DNA of 64,000 nucleotides from Fibrobacter succinogenes (GTDB lineage Bacteria; Fibrobacterota; Fibrobacteria; Fibrobacterales; Fibrobacteraceae). The stretch spans positions 1-64,000 of the forward strand of contig CACWJY010000005.1 of the NCBI GenBank assembly GCA_902761355.1, given 5' to 3'. Below the pieces are notes generated by a model that saw only the letters and a list, made by a program, of their open reading frames with translations, was not told the DNA's origin and did no database searches. The first letter of the stretch is position 1. Every line of letters starts with the position of its first letter. The position numbers and the translations under genes are program-made. Below are positions 7,078-34,170 of this stretch, piece by piece.

Positions 7078-7826
7078 CAGATTACCTCCAGGTCGTTGTC
7101 AGTGTTGCTCGCGTCAATTTTTGCCTTGGGCTTGCGGCCCGCTTTTATTTCGATGACGTCATCAATGCGCTGCACGTGTCCGCTGAGCTGACCGGCCGTT
7201 TCATCTTCGGCAATCAGGTTTTCAAGCATTTCCTTTGCTTCGGCGTACTTGCCGTCCTTGCAAAGTTGCAATGCGCGGGCCAAAACTTCCTTAGCCTTTT
7301 CACTTAACGGCGGTTGCTTTTGGTCGTTGTTCTGGTCCTGATTTTGATCCTGATTCTGTTTCTGCTTATCGAGCTCTTCCTTCAGCTTACGCTGCACGAT
7401 TTCCACGTTCTTCTTCGCATTTTCGAAACCGTTGTCAAGATCAATCGCTTTTTTCAGGTACGCCACCGATTCGCGCCACGCGGCAATGCGTTCGCTCCCT
7501 TCGGCGGCTTTTTCGCCCATACGAAAGTGTGTATTTGCCAAGTTGTAGGCCGCCTTCGCCGCCATCTTTTTATCCGGCATGCGCACGGCGCTTTCGAGCT
7601 CCTTCTTGGCCTCTTCATAGTTGCCGAGCCTGTACTGGCATGTACCGATGTTGTAGAACAGCAGCGGATTTCCTGGTTCTGCTTCACGGGCCTTCATGTA
7701 CTTTTCGAGCGCACCGGCATAGTCGCCGTTCTTGAACAGTTTATTGCCGTCGTTTATAGGCCGCGCCCATAACGCCACCGACAGCAAGCATAAACAAATC
7801 AACAACAATCGCATTTTAACCTTCAT
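7077..7826 (-). CDS. TPR protein resembling BatC/BatE
   Basis: A 249-residue exported protein (signal peptide LLLICLCLLSVALWA). It has tandem TPRs: GNKLFKNGDYAGALEKYMKA, FYNIGTCQYRLGNYEEAKKE, and YNLANTHFRMGEKAAEGS, then an Asn/Gln/Asp linker (about 165-185) and a further helical pair. This arrangement matches TPR proteins of Bat operons, where they work with VWA-domain proteins. Those VWA partners are not present next to it here; instead the gene follows a GT-C transferase. The function is therefore open. Its stop overlaps the start of the next gene. Confidence 0.7.
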   Translation of the reverse strand: MKVKMRLLLICLCLLSVALWARPINDGNKLFKNGDYAGALEKYMKAREAEPGNPLLFYNIGTCQYRLGNYEEAKKELESAVRMPDKKMAAKAAYNLANTHFRMGEKAAEGSERIAAWRESVAYLKKAIDLDNGFENAKKNVEIVQRKLKEELDKQKQNQDQNQDQNNDQKQPPLSEKAKEVLARALQLCKDGKYAEAKEMLENLIAEDETAGQLSGHVQRIDDVIEIKAGRKPKAKIDASNTDNDLEVI

Positions 7827-7872
7827 TATCCAGAACGAGAAATCCTAGCTGTTTAGGAACAGCTACTTTTCT

Positions 7873-9627
7873 CTACATAGCAAGAATATACAAAATCACG
7901 GTGCTCACGACAAATCCGAGTACAAACCCGTATCCAAGCACTTTCCACTTGAGCGATCCGTTTTCGACATGAATTCCGTAGCCCACAAAGGGGACAATCC
8001 CCAAAAGTGCGGGAGCAATGTACCTGAAATCATTACTGCACGAGAACGGCACCTTAATGCGCAAGAACATCAGCGCCGCAAAAAACGCCGCCGTCTGCAA
8101 CAACAAAATCCAATGCACCGCAGCAAGCTTCGTTTTCCAGAATCCACGCACCGCATACACCATCATTCCAAGGAATGTCACGCTCATCAGTGTCGCAAGC
8201 GTCCGACCCGTCTGCGTCCGAACCAGTTCAAATTCACCAAACATTGCCGACTTAAAGGAATAGTTCCAGAAGAACTCGCGGCCCCATTCCTCGTTCCACG
8301 CACTCGTATAGGGGTGAATCACAAACGACTTCAAGTCAAAGAAAATGTAGTTGAAGGCCTCGTTACCAACGCGGAGTTTTCCATTCAGGCCGCTTGCATT
8401 ACCAACCAAGTCTGCATCGCCTAGCAGTTTTTGCAACACAATGCCCACAATCAGCAACAAGAGCAAGCCCCACGCCACAACCTCAGATTTGGTCGGCCAA
8501 AAAACGCGACCGTTCTTCACGTAACCACACATCGCAAAAAGCACAAGCGTTCCAAGCGTCACGACACCGGACGTCTTGGTCCACATCGCAAGCGCCGCAG
8601 CTACAACTGCTATAATCAGAAACTTGCCGCGTCCTTCTTTCAAATAATTAGCACCACCCCACAGGCATAAAACATGCACCATATAGAACATCTGGTCGTT
8701 GCCTATTCGCGGCGAAACTAAAATCATCAAGGGCCAGAAAGCCCACAATAACGACGCAACTCCAAGCGGAGCCCCCGTCAAAAAACTCTTCAAGAACAAT
8801 ATTCCCAGGAACAAAGTCGCTACAGACAGCAACAAGCTAAACACCTGTAGTCCAGTAGGCCCCGTTACCCCCATCCATTCGCCAAGAACAAAAGAAGGCG
8901 CTGCCGAGGCATAATATACTGGAGGATGATAGCAAGTCCAGCAATCATCAACACCCGGCACAGCATGCTTTTCAAGAATATACTGTACGTAAGCCACATG
9001 GCCTTCTACGTCGTTCGAATAAGTCGTATAGGGCACATTCGCAAAGAACACCGCTCTAAGAGCCACTCCAACAAAAAAGAGGAACAAAAGACCGCCACGC
9101 AGCCTGAGGCGCCGAGCAAGCAAAAGGCAAAGCAAGGCAAAAAATACAATGGCGCCAATATTCGAGACTTTCGTCAAAAATGAAGTCTGATAAACAAAGA
9201 GATTAAGCCCTGCATCACCACCGTTATTTTTCAAGAAGAACGAAAAATGCGTCCTGTCGCCCACCCGGTTCGGCGCCAGCACACTATCTTCCAAGAGAAA
9301 GCCTTTCGAAAAATCGCACCGACCATGAATGCGATCCATCTCCAAAGCTTTCCCATTAACAACGATACTCTCGGCGCAATCGTCAGGGACGACCTTTAAA
9401 TCGTACGAAGAATGGTAGGGATTCCTTATATCCAGCTCGACCTGAAAATATTCTCCTTCCCTCATTTTTTTGGTAATGGGGAGCGAAGCTTCCTCTACAG
9501 ATTCGCCTCGTTGCAAAACAGCATTTTCGACCTTAACGCGCAACGAAAGGCCGGTTACAATACACGCAACCAGCAGCACAATGGCGTAGAATTCCGGCTG
9601 CTTAAAAATTTTCAGAAATTTTTTCAT
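7873..9627 (-). CDS. GT-C fold membrane glycosyltransferase (GT39/GT83-like)
   Basis: A polytopic protein (about 584 residues). After one N-terminal membrane segment there is a roughly 120-residue non-membrane insert, then about ten to twelve membrane segments. The first periplasmic loop has YSNDVEGHVAYVQYILE, with the acidic pair expected for a GT-C catalytic loop, and YHPPVYY, typical of PMT/ArnT-type enzymes that use polyprenyl-phosphate sugars. It is the third gene of a minus-strand operon after GtrA and the FAD oxidoreductase, which fits lipid-linked sugar transfer outside the membrane. I place the start at the ATG (9625-9627); a TTG two codons upstream is possible. The acceptor is unknown. 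Confidence 0.75.
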   Translation of the reverse strand: MKKFLKIFKQPEFYAIVLLVACIVTGLSLRVKVENAVLQRGESVEEASLPITKKMREGEYFQVELDIRNPYHSSYDLKVVPDDCAESIVVNGKALEMDRIHGRCDFSKGFLLEDSVLAPNRVGDRTHFSFFLKNNGGDAGLNLFVYQTSFLTKVSNIGAIVFFALLCLLLARRLRLRGGLLFLFFVGVALRAVFFANVPYTTYSNDVEGHVAYVQYILEKHAVPGVDDCWTCYHPPVYYASAAPSFVLGEWMGVTGPTGLQVFSLLLSVATLFLGILFLKSFLTGAPLGVASLLWAFWPLMILVSPRIGNDQMFYMVHVLCLWGGANYLKEGRGKFLIIAVVAAALAMWTKTSGVVTLGTLVLFAMCGYVKNGRVFWPTKSEVVAWGLLLLLIVGIVLQKLLGDADLVGNASGLNGKLRVGNEAFNYIFFDLKSFVIHPYTSAWNEEWGREFFWNYSFKSAMFGEFELVRTQTGRTLATLMSVTFLGMMVYAVRGFWKTKLAAVHWILLLQTAAFFAALMFLRIKVPFSCSNDFRYIAPALLGIVPFVGYGIHVENGSLKWKVLGYGFVLGFVVSTVILYILAM

Positions 9628-9640
9628 GAGCAATACCGGA

Positions 9641-11296
9641 CTAAGCCTTTTTGCCTTCGTGGTAATCTTCTTCGCTATTTACGCTCCAGAGAGCGGTCTT
9701 GTCACAAGAATTTTCGCGAATGCACTTCACGACTTCCATGGCGCTGAGCATGCTATGGTCCATATTGTTGTACTTGTGCATACCGTTGCGGCCCATGAGG
9801 AACAAGTTTTCTACCGGATCTACGTATTCACGAATCTTATTGAATTCACCATAGGTGCCAAAGTAAGCGGGGTACGCCTTCTTGATATGGAACACCACGG
9901 AGTCGCGAACCGCGTCGGGCCTTGCCACGTCAATTTTGTCTAGTTCCGCGATGGCGAACTTGATGAATTCGTCATCGGGCATGCGCCACATGTCATCACC
10001 CTCGGTCGCAAAGTACTCAAGGCCAATCCACACCTTTTCGGGATCAGCTACCAAGTAGGGGCTCCAGTTATTGAATATCTGAATACGGCCAAGCTTCACG
10101 TCAGACTCCTGCACGTAAATCCAGTTATCGGCAACAAACTTGAGTTTGCTTTCAGGAGTGCCTGGTTTTGCAGGATTCTTGATGAGCAACTTGTCGAGCA
10201 AAAGACCCACCGTGATAAAGTCACGGTAAACAAGGCCATCGGAAACGCGACGCACTTCGGCAGGAACCGGAGCCTTTTCATTATCCATCGCGGCAATAAG
10301 TTCCTTCACCGGCATGGTGCTGAGGAAATAATCGCAGGTGACCGTTTCGGTCGAAACCGCACCGTCGGCCAACCTGCTTTCTACGACCACGCTTTCAACG
10401 CGCTTGCCATCTTCGGAACGGTTTACGCCCACAACCTTTGAATTCATGCGGATTTCACCGCCCAATTCCTGCACCTTTTCGGCGACCGTTTCCCAAAGCT
10501 GTCCCGGTCCGAATTTCGGGTAAAGGAACTGGCCAATCAAACTCGTCTCAGTATCTTTCTGACGGATGTCCGCACTGTTGGCGGCACCCGCTTCAGCCTT
10601 TTTCTTGCCCGCAAAAATCTGCTTAAGGGCATGCACCACCGTCTTCGTAATCGAAAGTCCCTTGATGCGCTGACCACCCCAATCGGGGCTAATCTTGCTG
10701 CACGGCACGCCCCACACCTTCTCGGTATAATCGCGGAAGAACGTTCGGTACAGTTCTACGCCAAAGCGGTTGATCATGAAATCTTCGAGGCTTTTTTCTT
10801 TACGGGCAGGCAACAGTTGAACCTTGAGGTAGCTCATGCCAATCTTGAACATGCGCCAAAGCCCAAGGTTGCGGATTGTATCCCCGTTCAAGCTCACCGG
10901 ATAGTCGAAAAGCTTACGCAAAAAAAGGATGCGCGAAAGGCGACTGCGGCAAAGCATCACATAGTCCGTCTTTTCGGGATCGGGACCACCTTCGGTTAGC
11001 GGGACCTTACGGCCAATCGCGATGTCGTCTTTACTGGCAGCCCCCTGCAGCGGCAAGATACCCTGCCACCAGTCCATCACCGTATCGCTCTTGCTGAAGA
11101 ATCGGTGACCACCGATATCCATGCGGTTTCCGTTGTAGCGTGCCGTACGCGAAATACCGCCGATTACATCTTCGGCTTCAAAAATCACGGGCTTTACTTT
11201 CGTCGTACGTAGCAATTCCAAAGCTGCCGTAAGACCCGCAGGACCCGCACCGGCAATCACGGCGACTTTCTTTTCTGTGTTATCCAAGCTTTCCAT
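9641..11296 (-). CDS. FAD-dependent oxidoreductase related to UDP-galactopyranose mutase/protoporphyrinogen oxidase
   Basis: The N-terminus has a Rossmann FAD motif ([17 protein letters not shown], about residues 13-29) and the second conserved segment [20 protein letters not shown]. The body matches the NAD(P)-binding amine-oxidase-like group that includes glf-like proteins. Members of this subgroup occur next to GtrA and glycosyltransferase genes in polysaccharide loci, which is the arrangement here: 13 bases after GtrA and 13 before the GT-C transferase. A sugar-nucleotide or lipid-linked sugar substrate is likely but inferred. Length is 551 residues, longer than true UDP-galactopyranose mutase (about 380), so the glf symbol is not applied. 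Confidence 0.75.
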
Positions 11297-11309
11297 AGAA
11301 ACTCCTCTC

Positions 11310-11759
11310 CTAATCCACTTTCTTTTCTCGGAACAGCATCAACTTGCGTGCCCCAAAGTTCCACATCAAAACCAGAACGGCAGCAATCATTTTAGACAGC
11401 ATTTCGTTCCAGTCAAACACACCGACCATCAAAAACATCAAAAGCTGATTGATGCCTACGCCCGCAATCCCTACCAGCGCAAACAGGGTAAATTCCATCA
11501 CCTTGCGTTTTTCGAGAGTCCTTTCGCAGGCCGTAAACACCCACACAATGCTCATGGTGTAATTGAGAACCAGTCCCGCAACCAAGCCTACCAAATTGGC
11601 AAGCAGATAATGCCACTCCCAAATGTATAGACACAGCGCAAATAGACCAAAATCAACAACAAAGGCAAGACCGCCCGTCACCAGGTAGCGCAAGAACTGT
11701 CCCAGCAGGGATTTGCGAGGAAACCGATTACGTAACGCTTTTATCTTATCAGCAAACAT
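11310..11759 (-). CDS. GtrA-family membrane protein
   Basis: A 149-residue protein with four membrane segments and the GtrA pattern: [19 protein letters not shown], then [19 protein letters not shown] and a closing FGARKLMLF. GtrA proteins are thought to move polyprenyl-phosphate-linked sugars across the inner membrane. As first gene of the operon it would supply the substrate for the GT-C transferase encoded two genes downstream. The ATG at 11759 is the only start that keeps the first helix. Confidence 0.85.
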
Positions 11760-11780
11760 GCACTTGCAAATGTAACTATT

Positions 11781-13001
11781 CTAGACCAGTTGTTTGGCGT
11801 CAAACAGCGCCGACACCAAATTTATTATGCTTTCGTGGTCCTTTACAGCCGTCATTTCTCGAATACTGTGCATACTAAGCATCGGTTCGCCAATATCTAC
11901 CGTCGGGATTCCGAGCGTTGCCGAAATAGCGGGTCCCACTGTCGAACCACAGGGCATGTCATTACGCATCACAAACGTCTGATACAAAACATTACTTTGT
12001 TCACAAATTAACTTAAAACGCGCACTCGAGAAGACATCGCTCGCATAACGTTTCTGAGAATTTACTTTCAGCACAACACCTCCCCCTAAAACAGGAGCAT
12101 GGTTGGCATCGTGCTTTTGGACAAAGTTCGGATGGCAAGCATGCGCCATATCAATCGAAAGGGCGAACGAAGACGAAAGACAAGCGGCGACAGACGAAAT
12201 GTTCGCAGACTTGGCAAGTTCATCTAAAACGCTTTTCAAGAAGTTGCCTGCAGCACCTTCACGGGTTTCGGAGCCCACTTCTTCGTTATTAAAAAAGGCA
12301 GCCACCTGAAAATCATGTTCAAGCGCTTTTGCAGAAACAAAGGCCTGGGCAATCGCATGGCAACTGCTCAAGTTATCGAGACGACCTGAATAAATCCACT
12401 CGCTTTCAAACCCGCCAAACTGCGCCGGTTGAGCATCATACAGCTGAATATCGAAATCCAGCAGCTTTGTACCAGCAGGGATTTCGGCTTGCAAAGCATC
12501 GACAAAGCGCTCTTTACCGCCTACGGACGTCCAAAGAGCATCGAGATCTGTCTGCGGGTTTACCTTGAGACCCTCTTGATTTACGCCCCGATTTAGGTGG
12601 ACCGCCAGTTGCGGAATGCGAAACAGTTTATCACCGCGCACCAATTTTGTATGTAAACGACCGCCCTGCTCATAGGCTATTAAGCCAGCATAACCCAAAT
12701 CACGATCCAGCCAGCTTGTAAAAAGCGGACTTCCGTAAACTTCTGGATGCAAAGTACGCACTCCCGCCGCCGTCTTGTCCGGATTCGGGGAAATTTTCAA
12801 GGTCGGGAAATCCGTATGGGCAAGCGCAATCCTGAATTTTGTATCCAGACAAACTTCACTAGGCGGACGCACCGCAATCAGGGCGCCCCCTCGTTCGAAC
12901 AACAGAACATTTTCGTCATTTGTCTCACTAATAAGGGTCTTCAGGCTTTCGACCGTATGGTACGGCGAAACGGATTTGTTTAAAAAATCAAGGAACTTCA
13001 T
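11781..13001 (-). CDS. apeB: M18 family aminopeptidase (aspartyl aminopeptidase type)
   Basis: M18 enzymes are cytosolic, dodecameric, two-metal aminopeptidases that remove acidic N-terminal residues. Signatures: ALAHTDFPTLKI (first metal His-x-Asp), SGRLDNLSSCHA (bridging Asp), FFNNEEVGSETREGA (catalytic/metal Glu pair), DMAHACHPNF, and a C-terminal GEPMLSMHSIREM (last metal His). Length of 406 is slightly short for M18 but all metal ligands are present. It stands alone, 21 bases from GtrA but with its own strand-matched context, and is divergent from the MCE gene. Symbol follows the family; orthology was not tested. Confidence 0.88.
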   Translation of the reverse strand: MKFLDFLNKSVSPYHTVESLKTLISETNDENVLLFERGGALIAVRPPSEVCLDTKFRIALAHTDFPTLKISPNPDKTAAGVRTLHPEVYGSPLFTSWLDRDLGYAGLIAYEQGGRLHTKLVRGDKLFRIPQLAVHLNRGVNQEGLKVNPQTDLDALWTSVGGKERFVDALQAEIPAGTKLLDFDIQLYDAQPAQFGGFESEWIYSGRLDNLSSCHAIAQAFVSAKALEHDFQVAAFFNNEEVGSETREGAAGNFLKSVLDELAKSANISSVAACLSSSFALSIDMAHACHPNFVQKHDANHAPVLGGGVVLKVNSQKRYASDVFSSARFKLICEQSNVLYQTFVMRNDMPCGSTVGPAISATLGIPTVDIGEPMLSMHSIREMTAVKDHESIINLVSALFDAKQLV

Positions 13002-31076: not shown

Positions 31077-32966
31077 TTACGGCTGCTTGCCGTTGTAGAC
31101 CTTGACTTCTTGAATAAACGAAAGTTCGATTAATTCGGACTCTTCGCTACCGTAAGGCTGAATTTCGATGCACTGCGGAGACTTGGCGAACTTGAGCGCA
31201 TGCACAAAGAAATTCCTTTCGACTTCCTTGTCGCCGCGCTTGGCCGGATTCTTGAGTTTCGCTCCAATCAGGGCGCCCACCGTCTTGGCGTAGCGCAACA
31301 CCTGCACCAGATCAAAGTTGCTTAGGCGCTGGTAATTGCTACCGTACTTGGTCGAATTGAGAGCCGTCTGCAACGTCTCGGAATCAGCGACTTCCTTAAG
31401 GTCGTAATCCGGAGCCTTGGCCTCGGGCCAACCCACCACAAAGTCCTTGCGCCATTCTTCGGTCGGAGCGGCAGTGCGGTTCACGTTCTTGCGTTCCACG
31501 AACGGGCTATAGCCATAGTTCGTAAGGATTTCGAAGGCACGGGATTCCATTTCCGGTTTCAAGACAAATCCGTAGCCCGGAATAAATTCGTTCGCACATT
31601 CCATGAACTGCGGGAATCGAGAAAGTTCGTTCAGAACTTCGGCACTGTCGATCTTGAGCAGACGAACGGTCTGCACCTTGGCACCGTAGTAGGAGGAATT
31701 CCATTCGGTAAGGGTCGATTCCACATTGACGGGCGGCTTAATCCAGCCCTTGAAACTTTCAACCTCGGATTCGGCAATACCGCACTTGAGGCCGCGCATA
31801 TAGCTGTCGCGGTTCAGCGAGAAGCGCAAATAGATTTCGTCGTTTTCGACCTTGGTAAGGCATGCAAGCATCAACAGCACACGCGGAGCCGTACCCGTCG
31901 AAGCAATCAGTTCAAAGTTCGGAAGGCAGGAGATGTTTTGTTCCGGGACAGACACGACCGAGGTTTCAATCCAATCGCGGCACGACTGATCGAGCACCAC
32001 GGAAGCCACCTTACCATTCACCATCGTAAAGCGGACAAGGCCCAAAATCCAAAGTTCACGCAGCGGACGCGGTAGGTAATCCCATGCCATCAGACCGTCT
32101 TTTTCTTGCAGGCGGCAGGTGGGGTCTACGACCCAGAAAATCGACGAAGCGCACATCGCCGTTCTCGGGCGTTCGAGCATTTTAAGCAAGCGAACGCAAT
32201 GGCTGCGGTCTCCGCGGAAACGTTCCTTAAGCCACCAGGTCAACAAGTCCTGATGCAGTCTAAAGCCATTCTTGCGGATAAATTCAAGACCTCGTTCCGT
32301 AGGTACCAGACAAGAGTCTTCTTGTTCCAGCCAACCACTGCCCGTCAAGAAATTGAAAATAAGCGAGACTTCGTTTTCGGCAGTCTTCTCGGAAATACGG
32401 TGCGCCGAGGTAAATGCCTCCGCACAAATCTGGTAGCTGCGACGGTGCAACAGATTGCTGTTGTTAATCTTGAGGTCACCGGTCATGGCCAAGGCGAGCA
32501 CCTGACAAATATGCCAGTCCACTAGGTTCTGGTAATAAACGTCAGAACCCTTTACCGCCGGAGCGTCTTCGAGCGGTTCATCGAACAAACCCAAGAAATT
32601 AGAGAAGCCGTAATAGACCATCGTGTTTGCAGACGGAGAGCGCCACAGCAAGTATTCGCGGCACATGTTGAGCAAAAAGTTCTGCAATTCACGGGTACGA
32701 GCCTGACTAACCGAAACCGTCAGACGCAGTTCGTTATAAGTCAGACCTCTAGAGGCACTATTGTAAATCAGGTACATGCAGTGGCGCTGCCAAGGTTCCA
32801 TCTTCTGGCTCAGCGTCTTGACGCGTTCTATATCATTATAAAAGCTAAGCGTCTCACTTTGAATGAGAGCGTTGTTCAACAAGCCTTTGCGTCCAAAAGC
32901 CCTCGCATGTGCATTGCGGAGCAGTGGCTTGGACATCCCGTCAAAAAAAGCGTTCAAGTCAAACAT
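31077..32966 (-). CDS. Helicase-associated (XPB/Ssl2 N-terminal-like, Helicase_C_3) domain protein without helicase motor
   Basis: 629 residues from the ATG at 32966, which has AAAGG five bases upstream. The N-terminal half is helical with winged-helix-like segments (for example YNELRLTVSVSQARTRELQN and FNFLTGSGWLEQEDSCLVPT). The region SCLPNFELIASTGTAPRVLL to CANEFIPGYGFVLKP (about 365-510) matches the Helicase_C_3/XPB-associated domain, where a protein normally carries or partners a helicase. No Walker motifs are present. The C-terminal part (DLVQVLRYAKTVGALIGAKL, FFVHALKFAKSPQCIEIQPY) resembles a WYL-like ligand module. Function unknown; a DNA-transaction role is plausible. Confidence 0.65.
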   Translation of the reverse strand: MFDLNAFFDGMSKPLLRNAHARAFGRKGLLNNALIQSETLSFYNDIERVKTLSQKMEPWQRHCMYLIYNSASRGLTYNELRLTVSVSQARTRELQNFLLNMCREYLLWRSPSANTMVYYGFSNFLGLFDEPLEDAPAVKGSDVYYQNLVDWHICQVLALAMTGDLKINNSNLLHRRSYQICAEAFTSAHRISEKTAENEVSLIFNFLTGSGWLEQEDSCLVPTERGLEFIRKNGFRLHQDLLTWWLKERFRGDRSHCVRLLKMLERPRTAMCASSIFWVVDPTCRLQEKDGLMAWDYLPRPLRELWILGLVRFTMVNGKVASVVLDQSCRDWIETSVVSVPEQNISCLPNFELIASTGTAPRVLLMLACLTKVENDEIYLRFSLNRDSYMRGLKCGIAESEVESFKGWIKPPVNVESTLTEWNSSYYGAKVQTVRLLKIDSAEVLNELSRFPQFMECANEFIPGYGFVLKPEMESRAFEILTNYGYSPFVERKNVNRTAAPTEEWRKDFVVGWPEAKAPDYDLKEVADSETLQTALNSTKYGSNYQRLSNFDLVQVLRYAKTVGALIGAKLKNPAKRGDKEVERNFFVHALKFAKSPQCIEIQPYGSEESELIELSFIQEVKVYNGKQP

Positions 32967-33000: not shown

Positions 33001-33024
33001 AAAAAATTCCACCACAAGGCGGAA
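33001..33024 (-). terminator. Rho-independent terminator of the prmA transcript
   Basis: On the minus strand TTCCGCC-TTGT-GGTGGAA (one G-U pair) is followed by six T. It lies after the hairpin repeats, so these belong to the 3' untranslated part of the prmA mRNA. Confidence 0.7.
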
Positions 33025-33066
33025 TCTTTATCAAAGTGGTGTTCTAAAACACGCTACGAATTAACC

Positions 33067-33343
33067 GCAAGCACGCTCCACCATTGTAAAATCACTTCGT
33101 GATTTTACCAAATGCTTGGCTCAATCATGGGCAAACAAGTTTGCCCGCGATATTCGCCTTACGCATTTGTCCCCACCGTGGCTCATTCGGAGCGTGCAAG
33201 CACGCTCCACCATTGTAAAATCACTTCGTGATTTTACCAAATGCTAGGCTCAATCATGGGCAAACAAGTTTGCCCGCGATATTCGCCTTACGCATTTGTC
33301 ACCACCGTGGCTCATTCGGAGCGTGCAAGCACGCTCCACCATT
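33067..33343 (-). repeat. 129-bp tandem hairpin repeat (2.15 copies) overlapping the prmA 3' end
   Basis: Units start at 33067, 33196 and 33325 (the last one partial) with a period of exactly 129. Each full unit carries, on the minus strand, GGAGCGTG-CTTG-CACGCTCC, GGGCAAA-CTTG-TTTGCCC and GTAAAATCA-CGAAG-TGATTTTAC. The unit nearest prmA includes the last ~32 coding bases of that gene and its stop codon. Two point differences separate the full copies (for example CTTGG/CTAGG). Confidence 0.9.
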
Positions 33344-34157
33344 CGCCACTGACGCGCTCCTGCTTGACTTTGAAGCCGACTTCGTCGAACCAGCGGAGAA
33401 CGTAATCCTTTTCTGTTTCAAGCTGACCCGAAATAACAAGTTCTCCGCCCTTGGCAAGCAAGTCCTCGATGTCGTCTCGCAGGGGCCAGAGTTCGCTGCG
33501 AATCATGTTGCAAAGAATCACGTCGAACTTTGCTCCGTCCTTAAACGCATCCAAGAATCCGAGAACGCAGTCGCTTTCGTTAAAGCCATTACGTACAAAG
33601 TTTTCGGCGATGCAAGGAATGGTGAGCGGGTCAATTTCGGTACCAACCGCAAGCTTTGCGCCCAAACGACGAGCGTACATGGCCAAAATACCCGTACCCG
33701 TACCGATGTCGAGGACGGTTTTGCCCTTAAAGTCCACCGATTCCATCAAGGTCGCGCAGCTACTCGTGGTATCGTGTTCTCCGGTGCCAAAAGCCGTCTT
33801 GGCCTCGAGTTCAAGCACCACGGCATCGGGATCATCGGGAGTAAATTCTACCCAAGGTGGACGCACCCACAAATGAGGCGAAACAGACACGGGCTGCGCA
33901 CGGTCGCGCCACCACTTGTCCCAATCCTTGGCCGGTTCGTCACTGAGAGAAAAATGATATTGCGGGAATTCGCTTACGATACGGTCGCGTTCAGCCTTGT
34001 CGCCGGTATAAAAGCAGAAATCCGTGCGGCCTTCTGCCTTGGGGTCCAATTCTTCGAGGGTCGCCACGCCAGCTTCAAAAAGCAGGTAACTCGCCAATTC
34101 AAATTCTTCGGCGGGGCAATAGCCCTCGGCCTTGTACCATGTATCGATTTTTTGCAT
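33312..34157 (-). CDS. prmA: Ribosomal protein L11 methyltransferase
   Basis: PrmA trimethylates ribosomal protein L11. The N-terminal substrate-binding part contains FELASYLLFEAGVATLEEL, then the linker and the methyltransferase domain with TAFGTGEHDTTSSCATLM, motif I TVLDIGTGTGILAMYA (SAM binding), GTEIDPLTIPCIAENF and VILCNMIRSELW at the catalytic NxxxxxL position. Length 281 residues is typical. ATG at 34157 chosen over a TTG two codons upstream. The last codons (EWWSVLARSE) are part of the downstream hairpin repeat. A hairpin resembling a terminator lies about 20 bases before the start. Confidence 0.9.
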   Translation of the reverse strand: MQKIDTWYKAEGYCPAEEFELASYLLFEAGVATLEELDPKAEGRTDFCFYTGDKAERDRIVSEFPQYHFSLSDEPAKDWDKWWRDRAQPVSVSPHLWVRPPWVEFTPDDPDAVVLELEAKTAFGTGEHDTTSSCATLMESVDFKGKTVLDIGTGTGILAMYARRLGAKLAVGTEIDPLTIPCIAENFVRNGFNESDCVLGFLDAFKDGAKFDVILCNMIRSELWPLRDDIEDLLAKGGELVISGQLETEKDYVLRWFDEVGFKVKQERVSGEWWSVLARSE

Positions 34158-34170
34158 GGACAAAATTTAA

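Follow-up and report, generated by a model that had tools for sequence, protein, structure and literature searches.

A REP-like dispersed palindrome of Fibrobacteraceae and its probable local duplication at the prmA 3' end

The analysis presented here suggested that the tandem repeat at the end of prmA is probably a local duplication of a REP-like, Fibrobacteraceae-specific dispersed imperfect palindrome, which would fold as a single strand and would have entered the prmA 3' end with duplication of its target. The repeat was found in a 64,000-nucleotide stretch of Fibrobacter succinogenes DNA, hereafter called the window. It represents a new REP-like family, which by tag or transposase is outside the described REP superfamilies.

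TRF assigned positions 33067 to 33343 a period of 129, 2.1 copies, 98% matches, and a score of 540, which corresponded to two full 129-bp units followed by 19 bp, with the tandem copy number as read from one assembly of 71 contigs. The two full units had 2 mismatches, at 33117/33246 (T/A) and 33172/33301 (C/A), and none besides. The first-pass annotation had described a 129-bp tandem that copies the prmA end, with a first-transcribed copy that begins inside prmA and holds its last 32 bases and the stop; TRF and the unit comparison bore out this description. On the minus strand, the true unit consisted of 42 bases of prmA end, 3 bases, a 61-base core, and a 23-base adjacent hairpin (hp2). The transcript order was prmA-end copy 1, TGA, core 1, hp2, prmA-end copy 2, GGA, core 2, hp2, a 19-nt prmA-end remnant, and a terminator-like hairpin, as shown in Table 1. 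The first prmA-end copy read AATGGTGGAGCGTGCTTGCACGCTCCGAATGAGCCACGGTGG, with the stop inside.

Table 1. Features at the 3' end of prmA, in window coordinates
Feature	Position	Strand	Basis and remarks
prmA (ribosomal protein L11 methyltransferase)	33312..34163	-	ORF list; Pfam PF06325 E 8.8e-49; gene end GAATGGTGGAGCGTGCTTGCACGCTCCGAATGA within repeat
prmA-end direct repeat copy 1, 42 nt (end of coding sequence, stop codon, next 10 nt)	33302..33343	-	sequence, fold; contains coding hairpin A 33318-33337
core hairpin copy 1, 61 nt	33238..33298	-	covariance model R1 88.5 bits; source sequence of R1
hp2 copy 1, GTAAAATCAC-GAA-GTGATTTTAC	33215..33237	-	sequence; directly after core 1
prmA-end direct repeat copy 2	33173..33214	-	sequence, TRF, fold; hairpin A copy at 33189-33208
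core hairpin copy 2, 61 nt	33109..33169	-	R1 85.9 bits; single change A53 disrupts pair 11-53
hp2 copy 2	33086..33108	-	sequence, fold
third prmA-end repeat, truncated, AATGGTGGAGCGTGCTTGC	33067..33085	-	sequence, TRF, fold
terminator-like hairpin ATTCCGCC-TTGT-GGTGGAAT + T-run	33001..33025	-	sequence, fold; downstream of repeats

Three hairpins per unit had been proposed, and all of them were present on the minus strand, but the middle one (GGGCAAA-CTTG-TTTGCCC) was only the tip of the 61-nt imperfect hairpin. In the case of the first, hairpin A (GGAGCGTG-CTTG-CACGCTCC), the hairpin exists, but it is prmA coding sequence that was duplicated along with the unit. The proposed terminator after the repeat was found as a hairpin with a T-run. 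The gene downstream of this terminator (31077-32966, minus strand) encodes a conserved-looking protein of ~629 aa that had no Pfam match.

A DNA search of the window's own genome yielded four further loci with 71-76% identity; each had a core of precisely 61 nt in which the arms were constant and the inner stem around CTTG differed. We built a covariance model (R1) from six core copies, and it had matches in 61 of the 61 Fibrobacter genomes searched; thus, the copies in related genomes that the first-pass annotation had said to look for were present in every one. This search gave 4-86 matches per genome, and the best copies had the exact 61-nt length; the window's genome itself had 39 matches and G045, a near-complete relative, had 96, for an overall range of 4 to 96. 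Across the phylum, R1 had matches in 78 of 151 genomes, namely all Fibrobacter listed, ten genomes of other genera in the same family, and one weak match outside the family. When 84,980 species genomes were scanned with a degenerate pattern, at least 118 matching stretches were obtained, and all 80 matches listed were from Fibrobacterota (with Fibrobacter, Fibrobacteraceae, Fibrobacterales, or Fibrobacteria in their titles). The cores form a dispersed family that is almost confined to Fibrobacteraceae. Rfam 15 had no match in the window and only chance-level matches at the element loci. In the papers searched, we found no earlier account of such a repeat in Fibrobacter, and none is given in the main text of the article on the S85 genome. 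The family is undescribed, being outside every known repeat or RNA family that we found. One IMG/VR viral contig bears a core near its end (L219:14069-14129, 59.5 bits), which could be phage cargo or host flank.

From the outside in, the core was laid out as a 7-bp stem of variable sequence, a 4-bp stem, tandem G·A pairs, a 5-bp stem with a one-base bulge, a fixed G·U and C·A, and a 7-bp variable-sequence stem that usually carried a CUUG tip. In six core sequences, 12 of the 23 pairs had changes on both sides. The structure statistics were taken from 82 distinct 61-nt cores of identical length, which were aligned without gaps, so the alignment was not fitted to the structure. In these cores, the stems were 87% Watson-Crick paired, versus 14-29% when the partners were slid by 1-4 positions. 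Pair 20-45 was TA in 39 cores, AT in 21, and CG in 17; pair 21-44 was CG in 41, AT in 28, and TA in 8; and pair 29-36 was TA in 53, AT in 17, and CG in 10. The outer stem, which was unspecified in the scan pattern, covaried as well, with positions that the scan pattern fixes to be disregarded in this analysis. The tandem non-pairs G15·A49 and A16·G48 were found in 79 of 82 cores, the non-pairs G22·U43 and C23·A42 in 77, and the CUUG tip, mostly closed by G-C, in 71. Stem covariation around a constant CUUG loop, the second pattern that the first-pass annotation had tied to an RNA element, was therefore strong.

The fold was also specific to one strand. Mismatches within the helices of the 82 cores were G·A or A·G in 89 cases versus C·T or T·C in 10, and of the two strands the sense strand gave the better fold in 72 of 82 cores as RNA and in 73 of 82 as DNA. 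The mismatch asymmetry and the better sense fold indicated that one strand is what folds. This asymmetry was equally compatible with an RNA and with a single-stranded DNA hairpin.

An hp2-type adjacent hairpin directly followed 87% of the cores, versus 31% of control positions. Its stems came in 66 distinct versions, with loops that were mostly CTTG or GAA. On the other side, the base before the core was A in 116 of 129 cases (90%). This base bears on the right junction of displaced gene ends (see below), where we had considered a codon-phase lock as a translation effect. The lock was rejected because, at the junction, the native GAN codon lacks its G and an A stands before 90% of cores, so that a GA-type target that coincides with Glu/Asp codons explains the pattern more simply. 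We likewise rejected the idea that translation reinitiates from the element onto the displaced ends, because the prmA hp2 has an in-frame stop.

Gene context was taken from a simple hexamer gene caller for 139 elements, of which 130 were intergenic and 9 were inside predicted genes. The gaps were convergent in 51 cases, codirectional in 46 (30 sense and 16 antisense), and divergent in 14. A stop of a sense gene was found within -60 to +61 for 51 elements, and a stop of an antisense gene was found at the other side for 20. Within -20 to +9, the corresponding numbers were 33 for sense versus 8 for antisense, and 12 elements had the stop in their first nine bases. The elements sit behind stop codons in the sense orientation and avoid divergent promoters. 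Published REPs lie on the 3' side of genes, in convergent and unidirectional gaps (PMC3733652), and the placement observed here agrees with theirs and also with a 3'-UTR role.

The sense bias and the CUUG tetraloop, which is known from RNA, may just as well reflect selection for a role as RNA, and an RNA function of the core, such as 3'-end protection or a small RNA, is plausible when judged from the sequence. In its full form, this alternative holds that the core is a transcribed 3'-UTR RNA element that guards the 3' ends of mRNAs or gives rise to a small RNA, that it is selected by the host, and that its dispersal is secondary; we regard it as possible but hold it only tentatively. The sense bias beside stop codons, the terminator downstream in the window, the compensatory stem changes, and the G(CUUG)C tips and sheared-type G·A pairs that are found on the sense strand only would all suit such an element, as they would known mRNA-stabilizing hairpins or 3'-UTR-derived small RNAs, which share its position, sense strand, and stable tetraloop. 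However, copies were also found between divergent genes, in antisense orientation in codirectional gaps, and in interrupted gene copies; orthologous genes, such as prmA, often lacked the element; the copy number varied over the wide range given above; and 3'-side placement is shared by known REPs (PMC3733652). Unlike the known stabilizers and small RNAs, the Fibrobacter core has no Rfam match and is known from sequence alone. As for the prmA 3'-UTR RNA element envisaged in the first-pass annotation, its predicted copies elsewhere and covariation were found, but it is a dispersed repeat with a piece of prmA duplicated alongside rather than a prmA-specific module.

The preferred reading, a REP-like repeat that entered the prmA end, draws on signs of mobility. 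Identical cores were found at several unrelated loci within each of the genomes G048, G031, and G013; a comparison of 50 prmA loci identified element-free alleles (L108, L129, and L147); and insertions in a displaced carB copy had 8-9 bp overlaps. Together, these findings indicated mobility, and the core is apparently a mobile repeat, as far as its sequence distribution tells. An element inside a valS copy appeared to have inserted cleanly, adding ~72 nt and duplicating no more than 1 base. The target duplications varied (about 0-1, 8-9, and about 40 bp and more), and in this they fit no classical transposon, which counts against the preferred reading.

The prmA loci also suggested how the tandem could have formed. 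At L102, one element lies between two prmA-end copies, with 40 bp on each side, and L101 has a partly deleted element. A duplicated prmA end beside the element was observed at L033/L102, L039, L132, L136, and L145. At L145 and L136, the displaced downstream copy had the end type that is found in relatives lacking the element (AAGAATGC or AAGAACGC), and the coding copy was of the GTGTGCTTGCACAC type. In the proposed sequence of events, the element would have entered the prmA end, and ~40 bp of that end would have been duplicated on the far side, as still seen in L102. Recombination between both prmA-end copies would then have given tandem units of 42+3+61+23 = 129 bp. Because one prmA-end copy and the insert together add up to the 129-bp period, unequal recombination between the two copies would be the simplest origin.

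How the element spreads was addressed through a family search. The Y1 transposase (PF01797) was found in 4 of 12 genomes and was absent from the other 8, including the high-copy genomes G045, G006, and G038; no core was found within 1.5 kb of the Y1 transposase genes in the 4 genomes. Reverse transcriptase was found in 8 of 20 genomes. RAYT or reverse transcriptase as the general mobilizer was ruled out by this absence in many carriers. The family search thus revealed no mobilizing protein, which also counts against the preferred reading. The element may spread via recognition of a folded single strand, with copies behind stop codons being tolerated or favored. Since the strand-specific fold is family-wide and many carriers have neither a RAYT nor a reverse transcriptase of their own, a further mobilizing or RNA-binding partner is implied.

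Displaced gene ends were also found at other loci. A diverged copy of the upstream gene end started directly behind hp2 at prmA, valS (two sites), a radical-SAM gene, a sodium:solute symporter gene, and a probable ileS, and the gene-end copies differed mainly at third codon positions. The changes numbered 27 synonymous and 1 nonsynonymous in 37 codons of valS (L029), 12 and 1 in 18 codons of the radical-SAM gene (L032), and 6 and 1 in 9 codons of the symporter gene (L050). Both copies must therefore have been coding until recently, which points to allele replacement after duplication or to an element that arrived with a foreign gene end.

The latter possibility would make the element a marker of a gene-3'-end replacement cassette, or the right end of one, with the cassette bringing its own version of the gene end and displacing the native one, which we consider unlikely. 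It would account for the position of the diverged gene ends and for the almost solely synonymous differences, and in G055 and G024 the displaced copy is of the prmA end type of element-free relatives and the coding copy is of another type. However, most of the 159 elements tested had no gene-end copy behind hp2, and plain duplication followed by allele replacement through ordinary homologous recombination gives the same pattern. It is similarly doubtful that these loci define a new class of mobile cassette, recognized as a folded single strand and targeting gene 3' ends, often with differently coded last codons and a stop. If such a class did exist, the gene would stay functional, and its old end would be displaced beyond the element. 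The stop-codon sites beside displaced ends offer a tractable system for the gain and loss of bacterial C-terminal ends.

Displaced valS and carB pieces with cargo genes in between were found in several genomes. The valS 3' end was a hotspot at which the full valS was followed by other sequence and then by one or two displaced, diverged valS 3' fragments (L180 in G020:C31, L181 in G028:C102, L182 in G011:C16, L187 in G038:C45, L183, and L185), and across the genus it was a mosaic of several synonymous versions. At L073 (G000:C60, about 7780-8840 and 10850-11956), the 3' part of carB was intact and was accompanied by a displaced carB 3' copy beyond small unrelated genes. The displaced copy was about 87-92% identical and was interrupted by several of the hairpin elements, with what look like target overlaps of 8-9 bp. 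It also contained two copies of a second palindromic unit, GTGAGCCGTAGGCGACTCGTCTTAACGAGTCGTCG(G/A)AGGCGAGAGTGAG, which is distinct from the core element.

Like REP and BIME sequences (PMC3733652), the elements are short dispersed imperfect palindromes that form compensatory-stem subfamilies, lie downstream of genes, cluster, and have occasional intragenic copies. They have the general REP trait of a dispersed palindrome enriched downstream of genes. Unlike REPs, which are 20-40 bp (PMC3733652), they have a 61-nt core and a second hairpin, the core has conserved internal non-Watson-Crick pairs, and it was found only in Fibrobacteraceae, one weak match aside. Of 137 elements, only 21 had the unpaired tag of the GTAG superfamily no more than 12 nt from one of their ends, and most genomes had no resident RAYT, the dedicated Y1 transposase that is flanked by repeats in this superfamily. 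The CGTC superfamily is defined by a CGTC tag, an 8-9 bp stem, and a 4-5 nt loop; CGTC was present in 8 of 137 elements, and the core is a 61-nt structure with multiple stems. Like MITEs, the elements are non-coding and dispersed, and some have short direct repeats. They had no target duplication of fixed length, we found no parent IS, and the outer arms differed between copies, which leaves the elements without a conserved terminal inverted repeat. An explanation as conventional REPs that a RAYT moves, or as MITEs derived from a DDE insertion sequence, would suit their being short, palindromic, dispersed, and downstream of genes, and the 8-9 bp overlaps at some of the insertions. Given the tags, the carriers without Y1 transposase, the differing outer arms, and the variable target duplications, we judge this explanation improbable.

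Two other systems invited comparison. Rickettsia palindromic elements (RPE) are palindromic repeats that are able to enter genes, where they give codons or stops. Similarly, the 12 Fibrobacter elements noted above supply a stop in their first 9 nt, and one element was read through in frame in a valS copy; unlike RPE, the Fibrobacter elements are mostly intergenic, and they are unrelated in sequence and phylum. Integron attC sites have conserved RYYYAAC/GTTRRRY ends on the folded strand. The Fibrobacter cores lacked such ends, and their outer arms varied freely (CAAATGC, CAACCTC, AAAATTC, and others).

A chance tandem duplication or assembly artifact without wider meaning, as a two-copy tandem in an assembled genome might suggest, is scarcely credible given the same element behind prmA in other species, the genus-wide copies, and the two differences between units, and it is refuted for the element itself, the tandem copy number alone apart. 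The repeat is present in every genome examined of a major cellulose-degrading gut genus and is unlisted in Rfam, and it is a concrete test case of RNA function versus selfish DNA for palindromic repeats.

Small repeats were also found in and around the elements. A unit of ~52 bp (TATACGAAACTTGGC...ATGAGGA) was nested exactly in the hp2 loop in copies from G048, G031, and G013 (L342, L345, L348, and L352), and a longer small repeat was nested in the core tip behind prmA in G004 (L140). In the L338-L357 flanks from G048, G031, and G013, the element was embedded in degenerate AGTAGACAGTAGGA/AGGGGTTAGG runs that recurred at many loci, and elsewhere the hairpins were separated by AGACGA(G)AG spacers.
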